A stretch of DNA of 64,000 nt from Campylobacteraceae bacterium (lineage in GTDB: Bacteria > Campylobacterota > Campylobacteria > Campylobacterales > Sulfurovaceae), in contig JALWDJ010000071.1 in the NCBI GenBank assembly GCA_027014605.1, positions 1-64,000 of the forward strand. Direction: 5' to 3'. The translations under genes were made by a program, and so were the position numbers. Of this stretch, positions 34,536 through 41,019 are shown piece after piece. Below the pieces are notes generated by a model that did no database searches, was not told the DNA's origin, and was given only the letters and a program-made list of their open reading frames with translations. Each line of letters begins with the position of its first letter. The stretch's first letter is position 1.

Positions 34536-35201
34536 TTAAAGTTTTCCACCCATTCTTGCAAAGATAACCCTTTGAGCAATAGTCTCTAGTCTATCTACAA
34601 TTTTTAAACTTTTTCTAAAATATTTAAGTAGATTAAAATACTCTTGTACATTAACATCTGCATCACTCATTTTCTGTACAATCTCTTTTTCTAGTAGTGA
34701 ATATATATCTTCTGTTTTACTCTGCTCAACAGTGATTTTAGAGTTTAGTTTTTTGATTTTATCATCATCTTCAAAGGTATTTAACATCTCTAATGTATAT
34801 TTAAATGCATCTAAAGCACATCTATTAATACGCAAAGAGTCCTTTACAAACTCATGAATATCTTTATCATCTTCCATAATAACTGTTTGCATATTTTTAA
34901 GATAGCTATTTGTATTGTTCTGAATACGATTAAGTGCTGATGTTATCTTTAAGTAAGATACTAACTCCCTTAAATCTCTAGCACTAGGAGTATATTTAGC
35001 AAAAATAACAACTACATCATTATCTACTTTCTCTGTAATAGTTTTAAAGTCTTTAATAGATTTTCGTGCCTCTTCTAGCTCTTTGGCATTCCAATTTTTT
35101 ACTGCATCTACAGCCATTTTATTGGCACTATATAGATTTTCAACCAAATCTATAACGGTATCTCTTACGGCATGTCTTGCCTTTTGGTACTGTTTTAACA
35201 T
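34536..35201 (-). CDS. phoU: PhoU phosphate regulatory protein
   Basis: A 221-residue all-helical cytosolic protein with two PhoU three-helix repeats; the first includes YSANKMAVDAVKNWNAKELEEARKSIKDF and VVVIFAKYTPSARDLRELVSYLKI, the second RINRCALDAFKYTLEML. It moderates Pst transport and PhoB signalling. It begins at the last base of the pstB stop and is the last gene of the pstC-pstA-pstB-phoU unit. Confidence 0.88.
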   Translation of the reverse strand: MLKQYQKARHAVRDTVIDLVENLYSANKMAVDAVKNWNAKELEEARKSIKDFKTITEKVDNDVVVIFAKYTPSARDLRELVSYLKITSALNRIQNNTNSYLKNMQTVIMEDDKDIHEFVKDSLRINRCALDAFKYTLEMLNTFEDDDKIKKLNSKITVEQSKTEDIYSLLEKEIVQKMSDADVNVQEYFNLLKYFRKSLKIVDRLETIAQRVIFARMGGKL

Positions 35202-35983
35202 TATCCAAATCTCCCTGTAATATAATCTTCTGTAAGTTTTTGACTAGGGTTCATAAAAATCGTATCTGTCTTATCATACTCAATTAAATCCCCCAAATAC
35301 ATAAATGCTGTATAGTCACTAAGTCGTGAAGCCTGTTGCATATTGTGCGTTACAATAACAATAGATACCTCATCTTTAAGCTCTGCAATTAACTCTTCAA
35401 TAGCCCCTGTAGAGATTGGGTCAAGTGCCGAGGTTGGTTCATCAAAAAGCAGAACATCAGGCTTTAGAGCAACTGCTCTAGCAATACATAATCGCTGTTG
35501 TTGCCCACCACTCATTCCAAGAGCTGAAGTGTGAAGTCTATCTTTGGTCTCTTTCCAAATTGCTGCATCTTGTAGAGCTTTTTCTACTCTATCGTCAAGT
35601 TCAGATTTGTTTTTAACATCTGCTAGTCTCATTCCATAAGCAACATTGTCATAAATACTCATTGGAAAAGGAGTTGGCTTTTGAAAAATCATCCCTACAT
35701 CTTGACGAAGACGAATAAGGTCATTCTCTCTTTTTAGTTTTAAGATATTCTCTTTTTTCCCATCTTTAAAAAGGTTTATCTCGCCCTCATATTTATTCCC
35801 TGGATATAGGTCATGTATTCTATTCATAGCACGAAGGAGTGTTGATTTACCACACCCCGAAGGACCTATCATTGCTGTAATTTTGTTTTTCTCTATTGGT
35901 AGATTTATCTTTTTTAAAGAAGGAGCATCAACCCCTGCATAGGTAAAGCTAAAATCTTTGGTTTCCATTATTAAGTTGCTCAT
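35201..35983 (-). CDS. pstB: Phosphate ABC transporter ATP-binding protein
   Basis: A 260-residue ATPase of the Pst phosphate importer. Walker A is GPSGCGKST near 39-47, the Q-loop lies in [17 protein letters not shown], the signature is [14 protein letters not shown] near 157, and Walker B is [23 protein letters not shown] after the Q-loop is specific to PstB. ATG 35983 follows AAGGAGTC. It lies 9 bases after pstA and abuts phoU. Confidence 0.97.
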
Positions 35984-35992
35984 TGCGACTCC

Positions 35993-36802
35993 TTATTTTT
36001 TATTTCTAGTCATATATCGACCCGTTAAGTTAATGATTAACACGATAGCTGTTAAAACAAACGACGCAGCCCAAGCCAACTGGCGACTTTCCTCATCTGG
36101 GTATGTAGCTAAGTTATAGATACTTACGGTTAATGATGGAAACTGCCCTGTTAAATCCATGGTAAAAAACTGATTGTTTGCCGAAGTAAAGAGCAGTGGT
36201 GCTGTCTCTCCAATAATTCTAGCAAATGAGAGCAGAACCCCTGTAGTTATTCCCACTTTAGCAGCTTTAATAATAATCTGCACAATAATCGTATGTTTAC
36301 TCCCACCAAGTGCAATCCCTGCTTCTCTTAACTCTTTTGGTACAAGGGCTAACATATTGTCTGTAGTGCTTATAATAATTGGTATCATCATAATAGTTAG
36401 AGCAATAACCCCTGCAAAACCGTTATAGTTACCAAAAGGTGCAACAAAGAGAGCATAGACAAAGACCCCAATAACAATAGATGGAGCAGACATCATAACA
36501 TCGCTTAGATTTCTAATGACTGAAGCCAACTTGTTTTGGTTCGAGTATTCACGAAGCCAAATCCCTGCAAACATTCCAATAGGTACAGCAATCGCCGAGG
36601 CGATAAGTGCCATGGTAAACTGCCCAACAAGTAGGTTTCTAATACCACCATTTACTAAATCTTGTGTAAAGGTACTAAGATGAAGACTAGAGACCCCTTT
36701 GTAGGTTAAGGTTGCTAGTATCCAAAAGAGAAAGCTTATTCCAATCACTGCCGAGAGTGTTGAGAGTACCAATATGATTTTATTTAAGAGTAGTCTGTTC
36801 AT
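35993..36802 (-). CDS. pstA: Phosphate ABC transporter permease PstA
   Basis: A 269-residue inner-membrane permease with about six helices. The coupling region is ELREAGIALGGSKHTIIVQIIIKAAKVGITTGVLL near 157-191, with the EAA-type motif, and GETAPLLFTSANN follows. It pairs with PstC to form the phosphate channel. ATG 36802 overlaps the pstC stop by one base (TAATG). Confidence 0.95.
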   Translation of the reverse strand: MNRLLLNKIILVLSTLSAVIGISFLFWILATLTYKGVSSLHLSTFTQDLVNGGIRNLLVGQFTMALIASAIAVPIGMFAGIWLREYSNQNKLASVIRNLSDVMMSAPSIVIGVFVYALFVAPFGNYNGFAGVIALTIMMIPIIISTTDNMLALVPKELREAGIALGGSKHTIIVQIIIKAAKVGITTGVLLSFARIIGETAPLLFTSANNQFFTMDLTGQFPSLTVSIYNLATYPDEESRQLAWAASFVLTAIVLIINLTGRYMTRNKK

Positions 36803-37659
36803 TACTTAACCTTTTTCCCTAAGAAGTAGAATTTTGCTATGGAGATAATGGCAAAACTCACAACAAATAAGATAAGAGCCAAATAATACATGGAACTCAT
36901 CTCAAGACCCTCTGCTTCTGAAAAATTATTCGCTAAAAGAACAGGAATAGAGGTTGTTGCATCAGTTATTTTACTTGGTAGTTGCATGACTGAACCAATA
37001 AGGAATGCTACAGCCATAGTCTCACCCAATGCACGACCAAGAGCCAAAATAATAGAGCCAATAATACCACCTTTAGCATAAGGCATAATAACATCTTTTA
37101 TAACCTCAAACTTAGTTGCTCCCATCGCATAAGCTGACTCTTTGAGTACATCTGGAACAGTATTCATGGAGTCACGAGTAATTGCAGCCATAAAAGGGAT
37201 AATCATAATTGCTAAAACAATACCTGCTGTAAGAAGTCCTACACCATTACCTCCAAAAGTGGATTGAATAATTGGAGCAAAATAGAAAAGCCCCCACATA
37301 CCATAGATAATACTAGGAATAGCAGCCAAAAGCTCAATAGCAATAGAGACAGGCTTAATTAGGCTTTTATGTGCAATTTCAGTTAAGAAGATAGCAATTC
37401 CTATTGCAAGTGGAGTAGCAATAACCATAGCAATAATGGTACTTAACATTGTACCAAGAAGAGGGATATACCCACCAAATACGCCTAACTCTGCATCATC
37501 CTCATCAGCTTCCCACACTTCACTACCTAAAAAATGAAATCCAAACTCATGAATTGAATCTTGTGCATAGATAAAAAGTATTGAAAATATACCAACAAGG
37601 ATAAAAAAAGAGAGTGTAGCTGAGAAAAATGAGAAATTTTTAAAGAGTTTTCCACCCAT
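36802..37659 (-). CDS. pstC: Phosphate ABC transporter permease PstC
   Basis: A 285-residue inner-membrane permease with about six helices and the coupling loop VLKESAYAMGATKFEVIKDVIMPYAKGGIIGSIILALGRALGETMAVAFLIG near 170-220. It is the first gene of pstC-pstA-pstB-phoU. Unusually, it is separated from pstS by 494 bases containing debris, and has its own Pho-box-like promoter (37687-37719). AAAGG precedes the ATG. Confidence 0.95.
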   Translation of the reverse strand: MGGKLFKNFSFFSATLSFFILVGIFSILFIYAQDSIHEFGFHFLGSEVWEADEDDAELGVFGGYIPLLGTMLSTIIAMVIATPLAIGIAIFLTEIAHKSLIKPVSIAIELLAAIPSIIYGMWGLFYFAPIIQSTFGGNGVGLLTAGIVLAIMIIPFMAAITRDSMNTVPDVLKESAYAMGATKFEVIKDVIMPYAKGGIIGSIILALGRALGETMAVAFLIGSVMQLPSKITDATTSIPVLLANNFSEAEGLEMSSMYYLALILFVVSFAIISIAKFYFLGKKVK

Positions 37660-37686: not shown

Positions 37687-37719
37687 ATAATACTTTAAGG
37701 TGGTAACATTTTGGTAACA
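37687..37719 (-). promoter_or_regulatory. Pho-box-like promoter of pstC
   Basis: On the minus strand TGTTACC, 4 bases, TGTTACC (37713-37719 and 37702-37708; exact 11-base period), then 9 bases and the -10 TATTAT (37692-37687). This is the classic PhoB layout with the repeat replacing the -35. The same layout precedes pstS and the PhoB-like gene. Confidence 0.75.
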
Positions 37720-37737
37720 AGAGGAGTTTTATATTTT

Positions 37738-37883
37738 TAAGATATCAAAGAGCTTAAACATCTGACTACAACTTAAAATGTTTTCAATATCAAATTCTCT
37801 CTCTTTAGCATTCTTACAAGCATTTTGTAGATAGGGAGATAATTTTTCTACTAACAGTTGAAAAACAACGCAAAAATCACAAT
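37738..37883 (-). pseudogene. C-terminal coding fragment (unidentified)
   Basis: An open minus-strand frame without start codon, reading VEKLSPYLQNACKNAKE then REFDIENILSCSQMFKLFD and ending LKI-stop at the 3' end. The protein-like composition and absence of a start suggest the tail of a lost gene. I cannot assign a family. Confidence 0.35.
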
Positions 37884-37979
37884 AAAATAGCTAATAAAAA
37901 TAAAAAAAATATTTAAAAAATTAAGATATACACAATAAAAAATATTATATAATACAGATGTCTATTAAAAAAGAAATAA

Positions 37980-38099
37980 CATAATCAGCGAAATCCAAGC
38001 TTTTATGGGATTTACTATAAATTAGGACAAAAATTACAAAAAGGTAGCTTAGACCTTAATCATGACCTTAATCTTTGTGATTTTGGCGATTTAAACTAA
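37980..38099 (+). pseudogene. Short coding fragment (unidentified)
   Basis: Forty codons without a start, reading NPSFYGIYYKLGQKLQKG then SLDLNHDLNLCDFGDLN-stop. The composition is protein-like and the frame is closed upstream by TAA at 37977. It may be the tail of a decayed mobile or defence gene; the family is not recognised. Confidence 0.35.
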
Positions 38100-38153
38100 G
38101 AGTTACTTAACCCTATGCAATAATAGGGCTAAAATGTAGTGAATAAAGGGGGA

Positions 38154-39158
38154 TTAATTATTTAATCCTTTTGTTTCCCAGTATTTTCTAATAGCATCTT
38201 TAGTCTCTTTTGGAAGAGGTACATAACCTAAGTCAGACGCTACTTTGTTTCCATTTGTGTATGCCCAGTCAAAGAACTTTGTTACTTTTTTATTTGTATC
38301 TACTTTCTCTGTTGGAAGTAAGATAAATGTTGCAGCAACTATAGGATAAGATGTTTCACCTTTAGGGTCACCAATAACAGCATAAAAGTCTTTATCTGCT
38401 GTCCACTCTGCATATTTTGCTGCATCTTGGAATGACTCTAGTGTTGGATTAATAAATTTACCCTCTTTATTCTCTACTTGTGCTGCAGGAAGTCCTAATT
38501 TCTCTTTGAAAGAGTACTCAATGTAACCAATAGAGTTTTTAATCTGTTGAATATTTGCAGATACACCAGAGTTTGACTTACCAGCAACAACCTTAGGTGC
38601 TTTCCATTTTGGTTTCTTGCTTACTTTAAAACTTTTATCAAGTTGATGTAAAAAATAGGTAAAATTAAATGTTGTACCTGATTTATCAGCTCTAACTGCA
38701 ACAGTAATAGGAGCATGAGGAAGTTTTAAATCTTTGTTATCCTTAGCAATAATCGCATCATCCCAATTTGTAGCTTTTCCACTAAAAATGGCAGAAATAG
38801 CTTTACGAGATAATTTTAATTTACCATCTTCAATACCATCAATATTATAAGCAAGAACAATTGAACCTACAACAGCAGGAAACATATAAAGTTTTTTCTT
38901 TTTAAGAATTTTTGGTTTTAATGGTTTATCTGAACCTGCAAAATCTACCATTCTTTTTGTAATAGATTTAATTCCATCACCTGAACCTGTCGGTGTATAG
39001 TTAACTTGATTTTTTGTTGCCTTAAAATAGTCTGATGTCCATGCTTTATAAACAGGTGCAGGAAAAGATGCTCCTCTACCTTTTAGTTCATCTGCATAAA
39101 CGAAAGTTGATGTAACAGTTGCTACAAGAGCTACTGTTAAAAGTTTTGATAGTCTCAT
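38154..39158 (-). CDS. pstS: Phosphate-binding periplasmic protein PstS
   Basis: A 334-residue exported binding protein with a signal peptide ending VYA. Phosphate contacts are recognisable in GRGASFPAPVYKAW (26-39), TPTGSGDGIKSI, DFAGSDKPL and VRADKSGTTFNFTYFL near 155. It delivers phosphate to PstCA. It is monocistronic in practice, because 494 bases separate it from pstC. A Pho-box-like promoter lies 30-62 bases upstream, and AAGGAG precedes the ATG. Confidence 0.95.
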   Translation of the reverse strand: MRLSKLLTVALVATVTSTFVYADELKGRGASFPAPVYKAWTSDYFKATKNQVNYTPTGSGDGIKSITKRMVDFAGSDKPLKPKILKKKKLYMFPAVVGSIVLAYNIDGIEDGKLKLSRKAISAIFSGKATNWDDAIIAKDNKDLKLPHAPITVAVRADKSGTTFNFTYFLHQLDKSFKVSKKPKWKAPKVVAGKSNSGVSANIQQIKNSIGYIEYSFKEKLGLPAAQVENKEGKFINPTLESFQDAAKYAEWTADKDFYAVIGDPKGETSYPIVAATFILLPTEKVDTNKKVTKFFDWAYTNGNKVASDLGYVPLPKETKDAIRKYWETKGLNN

Positions 39159-39187
39159 ATTTGACTCCTTATCTTTAAATATGAGAA

Positions 39188-39220
39188 ATTATAAAATGAA
39201 TTAATAACAGATTGATAACA
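39188..39220 (-). promoter_or_regulatory. Pho-box-like promoter of pstS
   Basis: On the minus strand TGTTATC (39220-39214), 4 bases, TGTTATT (39209-39203), 9 bases, then -10 TATAAT (39193-39188). Same 11-base period and 9-base spacing as at pstC and the regulator gene. Confidence 0.75.
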
Positions 39221-39223
39221 TAC

Positions 39224-39907
39224 TTAAGCTAATTTATAACCTACTCCCCAAACGGGAATAAAATACTCTTTTTCTCCCATTGGATCAATTTTTTTTCTTA
39301 ATCTATTAAGAGTTACATTAATAGTTTTATCATTAAAATTTATACTATCCTCACCCCAAACCTCATCTCTTAAAAAATCTCTATCTAATATAATATTTGG
39401 ATTTTTAATAAAAGTATATAGTAGTTTAAATTCTAAATTCGTAAGCTCTATATCTCTATCTTCTATAATAACTTTATGATTTGAAATATTTAAAACTATA
39501 TCTCTATATTTTATCTTTTCATTAAAAATCAAACCTGAACGACGAAGCAGTGCTTTAACACGCAAAACTAACTCTCTTGGTTTAAAAGGTTTCGTAATAT
39601 AATCATCACCACCTCTTATAAATCCCTCTTCAATATCTTCATCTCTATCTTTAGCTGTTAAAAAGATAACAGGTATATTATATCCATTCTTTCTAAGGTT
39701 AAATACAAATTCACTCCCTTCATAAGATGGTAGATTTCTATCTATAATCATTAATGAAGGGTTCTCCTCTTCTAAAAACTGCTCAACTCCCTTTGTAGAG
39801 AGAAATCCTATAGTCTCATATCCCACCTTTTGTAAATGATATTCGACCAATTCTAAAATATCCTCTTCATCCTCTATAATAACAATTTCTATAGCTTTAG
39901 TTTTCAT
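39224..39907 (-). CDS. PhoB/OmpR-family response regulator
   Basis: A 227-residue regulator. The receiver has acidic pair EDEED near 12, phospho-Asp in LMIIDRNLP near 56, Thr in VIFLTAKD and Lys in YITKPFKPREL. The winged helix has ITNLEFKLLYTFIKNP-type helices and RDFLRDEVWG, ending IPVWGVGYKLA. Its place just upstream of pstS and the shared operator argue that it is the phosphate regulator. No histidine kinase is beside it, so its partner lies elsewhere. Confidence 0.88.
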   Translation of the reverse strand: MKTKAIEIVIIEDEEDILELVEYHLQKVGYETIGFLSTKGVEQFLEEENPSLMIIDRNLPSYEGSEFVFNLRKNGYNIPVIFLTAKDRDEDIEEGFIRGGDDYITKPFKPRELVLRVKALLRRSGLIFNEKIKYRDIVLNISNHKVIIEDRDIELTNLEFKLLYTFIKNPNIILDRDFLRDEVWGEDSINFNDKTINVTLNRLRKKIDPMGEKEYFIPVWGVGYKLA

Positions 39908-39914
39908 AAAATAG

Positions 39915-39947
39915 AGTTTACTCTTAATTGATAACTAAATAATAACA
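39915..39947 (-). promoter_or_regulatory. Pho-box-like promoter of the response regulator
   Basis: On the minus strand TGTTATT (39947-39941), 4 bases, AGTTATC (39936-39930), 9 bases, then -10 TAAACT (39920-39915). This indicates autoregulation of the PhoB-like gene. Confidence 0.65.
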
Positions 39948-39954
39948 AAACTTA

Positions 39955-41019
39955 CTATTCTATTTTATTATGTCTATTTTCAATTCTTTTAATAACCTCA
40001 TCAGCAACTAATTCTTGTATCCCCATATCTAAGTGACTAAAAAAACCAACACATGAGCAATTCATCTCACCCAATACAAATTTATCATTACCATCTTCAT
40101 CAGTATCTAACATAAAGTCACCTGTCCAAATAATTGGTGTATTTTTGATTTTTCCAAGTTTATCTGAAATCATTGGAATAGAGTTAACAAACTTATCTAC
40201 AAGCTCTTGATACTCCTCTGGTTTATAATATGTATATTCAGCTCCTGATGCAATAGTTGCAGAAAAAGCATCTTTTTCTTGAACTGGTTTTTTATGAACA
40301 ACAAAAATTGGTTTATCTGCTACCATTAAAATACGAATTTCACCCTCAACAATTCTAGGCATAAATCTCATATCAACAAGCATTCCATTATCACCCTCTA
40401 TATATCGTTTACAAAACTTTATAAACTTACCAAGAGAGTTATACTCAACATGGTTATCAACAGCTTCAGTACATTTAATAACTGTATCTAAAGGTAGCGT
40501 ATCTCCTGCTTCATAATCTACCTTATTATCTACAATCTCTACTCTCCAAATACCCTCTCCTGTTGAACCTCGATTTTGTTTAAGAACTCTTGTCCCATAA
40601 GATATACTTTTTGGAAAATTCTTTTTAAACTCATCATAAGTATAATAAGCATAAGTGTCATCTGGAACAAGGTCAGTATCTGCTAATTTAGCTAAAGCAT
40701 CTTTAGCCCCAAAACGAATCATAGTATTTGGATGTGTTAAGATAATTACACCACTATCGTGAAGTTGACGAAGCATCTCAAAAAGTCTAGCCTCTCCATT
40801 AGGAAGATTTCCTGGATTAATCCTTACTATTACAGCATCTGCTTTTTCTAAAATATAATCAAATACATCACTAAACCATTCATCACGATAATAGATTACC
40901 TCTGCTCCATATCCTTTTTCTATAATAGCATTAACAATTGGCATAGTATCTCTTCTATGCCCATCAATCCACTTATCTGCCCCACCTTCTGCCTCCAAAA
41001 CAATTACATGTCTTTTCAT
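39955..41019 (-). CDS. Cj0069-family ATP-grasp-like protein
   Basis: A 354-residue cytosolic protein of the Cj0069 family known from Campylobacterota. The fold reads as ATP-grasp: N-terminal EAEGGADKWIDGHRRDT, THPNTMIRFGAKDALAKL near 95-112, VLKQNRGSTGEGIWRVE near 144 (phosphate loop), DMRFMPRIVEGEIRILMV near 216 and metal-binding LGEMNCSCVG near 320. It probably ligates or phosphorylates a small molecule. It sits upstream of the PhoB-like gene on the same strand, separated by that gene's own Pho-box promoter. Substrate unknown. Confidence 0.75.
   Translation of the reverse strand: MKRHVIVLEAEGGADKWIDGHRRDTMPIVNAIIEKGYGAEVIYYRDEWFSDVFDYILEKADAVIVRINPGNLPNGEARLFEMLRQLHDSGVIILTHPNTMIRFGAKDALAKLADTDLVPDDTYAYYTYDEFKKNFPKSISYGTRVLKQNRGSTGEGIWRVEIVDNKVDYEAGDTLPLDTVIKCTEAVDNHVEYNSLGKFIKFCKRYIEGDNGMLVDMRFMPRIVEGEIRILMVADKPIFVVHKKPVQEKDAFSATIASGAEYTYYKPEEYQELVDKFVNSIPMISDKLGKIKNTPIIWTGDFMLDTDEDGNDKFVLGEMNCSCVGFFSHLDMGIQELVADEVIKRIENRHNKIE

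Follow-up and report, generated by a model that had tools for sequence, protein, structure and literature searches.

The 64,000-nucleotide stretch of DNA analyzed here (the window) comes from a sulfur bacterium related to Sulfurovum and carries phosphate-uptake genes beside the gene for a response regulator, and short direct repeats precede three of these genes. The locus therefore raises the question of whether the repeats are operators of a phosphate-starvation switch and, if so, which protein would act on them and how. We conclude that the three sites are very probably the operators of a PhoR/PhoB-type switch.

All genes concerned lie on the minus strand, in the order of a Cj0069-family gene (positions 39955-41019; NF033816, DUF6815), the regulator gene directly downstream of it, pstS, pstC, pstA, pstB and a gene with a PhoU domain that extends to 34536. 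The pstS gene (38154..39158) encodes the phosphate-binding protein (TIGR00975, 302 bits, over the cut-off). Transcription of pstC (36802..37659) runs on into pstA (35993-36802), pstB (35201-35983) and the PhoU-domain gene (34536-35201). The products of pstC, pstA and pstB score over the cut-offs of TIGR02138, TIGR00974 and TIGR00972, respectively, and the PhoU-domain protein is over the cut-off of Pfam PF01895 and under that of the NCBIfam PhoU model. Cj0069-family genes also occur near pst genes in loci L237, L238, L231 and L232.

Each site consists of a pair of 7-base direct repeats with 4 bases between them (an 11-base period), and then 9 bases that lead to a -10 hexamer. On the minus strand, the pstC site (37719-37687) reads TGTTACC-AAAA-TGTTACC-ACCTTAAAG-TATTAT, the pstS site (39220-39188) reads TGTTATC-AATC-TGTTATT-AATTCATTT-TATAAT, and the regulator site (39947-39915) reads TGTTATT-ATTT-AGTTATC-AATTAAGAG-TAAACT. 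The boxes proper occupy 37702..37719, 39203..39220 and 39930..39947, and the -10 hexamers occupy 37687..37692, 39188..39193 and 39915..39920. From the hexamers, 27 bases lead to the pstC ATG at 37659, 29 to the pstS ATG at 39158, with a Shine-Dalgarno sequence (AAGGAG) present, and 7 to the regulator ATG at 39907. The regulator box begins 7 bases past the stop codon of the Cj0069-family gene upstream.

An earlier note on this DNA had described TGTTAYY-type repeats with this period and spacing before pstC, pstS and a PhoB-like gene on the minus strand, and we confirm that description. Its full pattern, ending in TAWWWT, is exact in the pstC and pstS sites, but the regulator site departs from it by one base (TAAACT). 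None of the three promoters shows a match to a -35 element. A strong -35 element is generally missing from the sigma-70 promoters of this phylum, so its absence here does not by itself imply that the box replaces one, as the note had proposed; that the box stands in for a -35 element at a fixed distance from the -10 hexamer is plausible.

The regulator gene (39224..39907, minus strand) encodes an OmpR/PhoB-type response regulator of 227 amino acids, with receiver and winged-helix domains (Pfam PF00072 and PF00486) and equivalents of D10, D53 and K105, which supply the acidic site, phospho-acceptor Asp and Lys. Its best NCBIfam model is that of PhoB (TIGR02154), at 173.3 bits against a cut-off of 296.2, and it scores 140.5 of 471 bits with NF007546. 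Because it is well under the NCBIfam cut-off, we class it as PhoB-type and not as a PhoB equivalog. A tree of 134 regulators places it in a group of 45 members (clade A; support 64, weak to moderate), beside a second group (clade B); the two clades together have a support of 93.

The promoter of this gene has an implication on which the earlier note was silent. The first T of its -10 hexamer is 13 bases before the ATG, and no Shine-Dalgarno sequence lies between the two. Leaderless mRNAs of Epsilonproteobacteria are recognized by TAnnnT about 12 bases before the ATG and by the lack of a ribosome binding site (PMC3847290, PMC3160421), and the regulator promoter shows both features. Since the -10 hexamer ends 5-7 bases before the ATG in most clade A genes, and no Shine-Dalgarno sequence is present, the regulator mRNA is probably leaderless, and transcription is predicted to begin on the ATG or beside it. 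A regulator mRNA that appears to begin precisely with the first codon is unusual. A box at the same place as here, with 5-7 bases between the -10 hexamer and the ATG, precedes 31 of the 45 clade A genes, compared with 0/21 in clade B and 1/64 among other regulators. In pstS genes, the corresponding distance is 25-57 bases in nearly all cases, and a Shine-Dalgarno sequence is present in 30 of 31; for pstC, the distance is 26-31 bases in all genes but one, with a Shine-Dalgarno sequence in 21 of 22. The predicted regulator mRNA resembles the leaderless mRNAs reported previously in its TAnnnT, its ATG start and its missing ribosome binding site, but differs from them in that the layout comes together with a Pho box and persists across most of a clade. 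This conservation in clade A is notable because leaderless status is otherwise poorly conserved between species (PMC3847290).

The regulator mRNA might instead not be leaderless, if the gene were mainly co-transcribed from the gene upstream or translated from another codon. Read-through is possible, given the 7 bases between the upstream stop codon and the box. In locus L033, the regulator lies behind a box-bearing porin gene and has no box of its own. However, the 31 clade A genes keep the 5- to 7-base distance even though their surrounding sequences differ, protein starts align across the clade, the gap lacks the Shine-Dalgarno sequence that pstS and pstC genes usually have, and the gene studied here has no later in-frame start ahead of the receiver core. 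We therefore regard this account as unlikely and retain the leaderless reading. The layout is also seen before a PsiE-family gene with a Pho box in L049, L051 and L060 (minus strand, divergent from the regulator), where 5 bases separate the -10 hexamer from the ATG; this gene is a candidate for another leaderless starvation gene. A phosphoesterase gene of L035 shares the layout, with 7 bases.

If the sites are operators, the adjacent regulator is the predicted binder. E. coli PhoB, which has the same domain make-up, contacts bases through T194, V197 and R201 in the major groove and R219 in the minor groove (PMC3264566, PMC3973317). Relative to the E. coli PhoB sequence, in a numbering that agrees with that of PMC3264566, the three major-groove residues are present in this regulator and in 40/40 close regulators. 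R219 is replaced by W here, and W is usual at this position in close regulators. In place of D196, this regulator has N, which is general in the phylum. We considered residue 196 of the recognition helix as a cause of the changed half-site and dropped the idea, because D196 of PhoB does not touch the DNA (PMC3264566).

It is improbable, in our assessment, that another co-occurring OmpR-family regulator binds the sites and that the adjacent one serves some other purpose. Adjacency by itself does not prove binding, the genome encodes several other OmpR-like regulators (the best being 33% identical), and many relatives hold a second related regulator, from clade B, behind phoU. However, this genome has no clade B copy, T194 is lost in about half of clade B, the promoters of clade B genes carry the box in 0/21 cases versus 31/45 in clade A, and the box is specific to phosphate genes. 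We thus favor the adjacent regulator as the predicted binder. The clade B paralogue is found behind phoU in many Sulfurovum genomes (L054, L056, L058, L060 and others), without a box of its own. The clade B group is 57-63% identical, and the T194 substitution found in the recognition helix of about half its members is to A, which suggests a changed target or role.

Pattern searches of the 1.98-Mb genome with the 18-base box TGTTAYYN4WGTTAYY yielded exactly three perfect matches, namely these three sites. At one mismatch, 52 sites were found, versus 36 for the reversed pattern, which is near background. The sole further good site in the genome is located on contig C22 (18274-18242, minus strand; TGTAACT-AAAA-TGTAACT-aaactatta-TACAAT), 61 bases upstream of a gene for a porin-like protein of 394 amino acids. 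This protein has no match in Pfam, NCBIfam or PDB. A box-bearing porin gene of the relative L049 matches Porin_5, and numerous genomes have relatives of the porin-like gene close to the regulator or to pst genes. When we sought additional regulon members by using a relaxed pattern and profile scores, only weak sites were obtained (12-14 bits, versus 23-35 for the four real sites). Three of the weak sites were inspected: one precedes a peroxiredoxin gene, the others have no open frame that begins just downstream, and none belongs to a phosphate gene. The box-like site before the peroxiredoxin gene (12 bits; L156:1501, plus strand; contig C8:26716) is positioned 50 bases upstream of it, with a Fur/PerR-like gene following, and is probably a different operator.

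Because the pattern was derived from these three sites, related genomes provide the fair test of it. We examined 77 named loci retrieved with the regulator as query, mostly from Sulfurovum, together with the window. With at most one mismatch, the box occurs upstream of 20 of 94 regulator genes, 11 of 30 pstS genes and 13 of 28 pstC genes; dinucleotide shuffles predict 0.3, 0.2 and 0.1, respectively. Starts of pstB within the same operons, which served as a negative control, have the box in 0 of 32 cases. The enrichment upstream of phosphate genes that the note had asked for is thus present. A 37-base profile built from 50 sites finds 157 sites of at least 16 bits in the Sulfurovum-type loci, whereas the reversed sequence contains none. 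When half-site profiles were applied with the gap left free, a gap of 4 (period 11) gave 253 pairs, versus 8 in reversed sequence, and the best of 15 other gaps gave 38. TAnnMT stands exactly 9 bases after the box in 189 of 250 related boxes, and the next-best offset accounts for 20. Both the period of 11 bases and the spacing of 9 bases are sharply specific.

Genes downstream of the box in relatives include the regulator, pstS, pstC, the porin family, PHO4/PiT, the ornithine-lipid synthase OlsF (781.9 bits; cut-off 620), PsiE (Pfam match over the cut-off) and a calcineurin-like phosphoesterase. As judged from these gene assignments, the box is a specific mark of phosphate genes. Direct observation covers the sites themselves, how exactly they are spaced, how well they are conserved and which phosphate genes they accompany. 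The same box stands before all three genes in relatives, and before other phosphate-starvation genes, which supports the proposal that it is a PhoB-type operator connecting the regulator with the two transport promoters. That such repeats arose by chance in a genome rich in A and T is scarcely credible: near-matches with two or three mismatches are common (up to three mismatches, 346 sites versus 246 with the pattern reversed), but perfect boxes occur at this locus alone in the genome, and the conservation and spacing in relatives, far above controls, already refute the idea.

A sample of 80 pst regions from 11 Campylobacterota families was scanned with the Sulfurovum-trained profile. In 11 of the 11 families, the pattern TGTWAYC-N4-TGTWAYC-N9-TAnnnT appears ahead of a pst, phoU or porin gene. 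It is absent from some genomes, and mostly so from those of f2 and of f3, a Campylobacter-like family, that have a divergent pstC. The suggestion that the box is lineage-specific therefore fails: the box occurs throughout the phylum, its consensus being TGTWAYC, whereas TGTTAYY is preferred locally, and even the C22 site of this genome has TGTAACT. In the sequences sampled, TGTTAYC is one end of the range of the box. One f3 genus has TGTTTCC-N4-TGTTTCC with the same 9-base spacing; in Sulfurovum, TGTTTCC likewise serves as the second repeat in many pstS boxes.

To our knowledge, the C. jejuni box is the only one described so far in the phylum, and our literature search found no paper pairing "Pho box" with "Epsilonproteobacteria". 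Wosten et al. are said to have reported in 2006 that the C. jejuni PhosS/PhosR box has the consensus GTTTCNAAAANGTTTC, with GTTTC half-sites. That system belongs to the same phylum, shares the 11-base period and has phosphate uptake genes as targets; its boxes differ in having T at half-site position 5, where the boxes of this genome have A. The PhosR box looks like a derived form of the phylum box, and the TGTTTCC boxes of the f3 genus fit the PhosR half-sites reported.

In the same frame, the E. coli pstS promoter, read by eye, is TGTCATA-AAAC-TGTCATA-TTCCTTACA-TATAAC; of 5,426 E. coli genomes, 5,392 contain the query sequence with an identity of 95-100%. This promoter and those of the window have two direct half-sites with an 11-base period and the same 7-4-7-9 layout to the -10 hexamer. 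The assertion that the period matches PhoB-family operators is thereby borne out, and the 9-base spacing is equal as well. The half-sites differ, being TGTCAT in E. coli and TGTTAYC or TGTWAYC here, as do the unlinked kinase and the predicted leaderless regulator promoter of the present system. Because the same layout is found across the phylum boxes and E. coli pstS, the architecture is kept and the letters of the half-site alone drift, which is a general property of Pho boxes (Pho-regulon review, PMC4415409).

No kinase gene was found beside the regulator in the window. In other families, the gene order is often phoU-regulator-kinase. By homology, we identified an orphan PhoR-like kinase of 337 amino acids on contig C91 (L137:1120-2133, plus strand), which is a homologue of the kinase of the pst-linked regulator of other families and is mostly 38-44% identical to it. 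The short kinase is present in all 28 genomes of the family with the closest regulators (at least 277 bits). Where the regulator is more distant, the genome mostly has a longer form of 458-558 amino acids, in many cases adjoining the regulator; as an exception, three genomes of genus g11 pair the short kinase with a distant regulator. Homology and co-occurrence, as opposed to linkage, make the C91 protein the likely partner kinase. By eye, it has two short membrane helices, with little room for a periplasmic sensor. Sulfurovum-type genomes keep the short kinase apart from its presumed regulator.

Two further elements lie between pstS and pstC. A hairpin after pstS (38106..38133, minus strand; -11.8 kcal/mol for a 67-nucleotide stretch) has the same stem and a changed loop in the same-genus locus L235, and may keep transcripts of pstS from running on into pstC. 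A dispersed repeat of about 250 base pairs (37852..38104, minus strand) has inserted upstream of the pstC promoter, on its pstS side, and has imperfect inverted ends (...CGCCAAAATCACA / TGTGATTTTTGCG...). Copies that are 99-100% identical reside on contigs C8, C58 and C75, with partial copies elsewhere, and the repeat is absent from the 209-base-pair pstS-pstC gap of L235. It looks like a small, nonautonomous mobile element. The pstC box is intact, and therefore pstCAB-phoU should still be inducible together with pstS.

The scheme we propose draws on established PhoB biology for binding, phosphorylation, activation and the start points; which protein binds the sites and which kinase acts on it are likewise inferences. 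When phosphate is scarce, the PstSCAB-PhoU complex would no longer restrain a sensor kinase, probably the 337-amino acid protein of C91, which would phosphorylate the regulator (39224-39907). Two regulator molecules would then bind head-to-tail on both half-sites, which lie one helical turn from each other and so share a face of the DNA. Acting instead of a -35 element, they would hold RNA polymerase at the -10 hexamer, whose distance from the box is exactly 9 bases. This would induce pstS, pstCAB-phoU, the porin-like gene elsewhere in the genome and, by positive feedback, the regulator itself, whose start point would coincide with the ATG and whose mRNA would thus probably be leaderless. Counting against the operator reading are the score of the regulator under the PhoB cut-off (173 versus 296 bits), the W in place of the minor-groove R219 and the 12 of 45 clade A genes with no promoter box within 50 bases, several of which belong to an operon behind phoU or the porin gene.

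For the Sulfurovum lineage, we consider it likely that the regulator gained its own Pho-box promoter giving a leaderless mRNA. Its synthesis would then be starvation induced and self-amplifying through leaderless initiation, with the targets keeping their ribosome binding sites, the PsiE and calcineurin-like phosphoesterase genes sharing the layout in some relatives, and the kinase being unlinked and shorter than in other families.

As predicted from sequence, the switch is of a known kind, with a box common to most of the phylum. On these results, the phosphate-starvation operator can be defined in usable form for the whole phylum, which includes chemolithotrophs of vents and sulfidic sediments as well as Campylobacter. 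With this definition, a regulon that would comprise transport, a porin, ornithine lipids and PsiE can be read from sequence. The locus also offers a conserved, testable case in which a stress regulator would be made from a leaderless mRNA and its targets would not.
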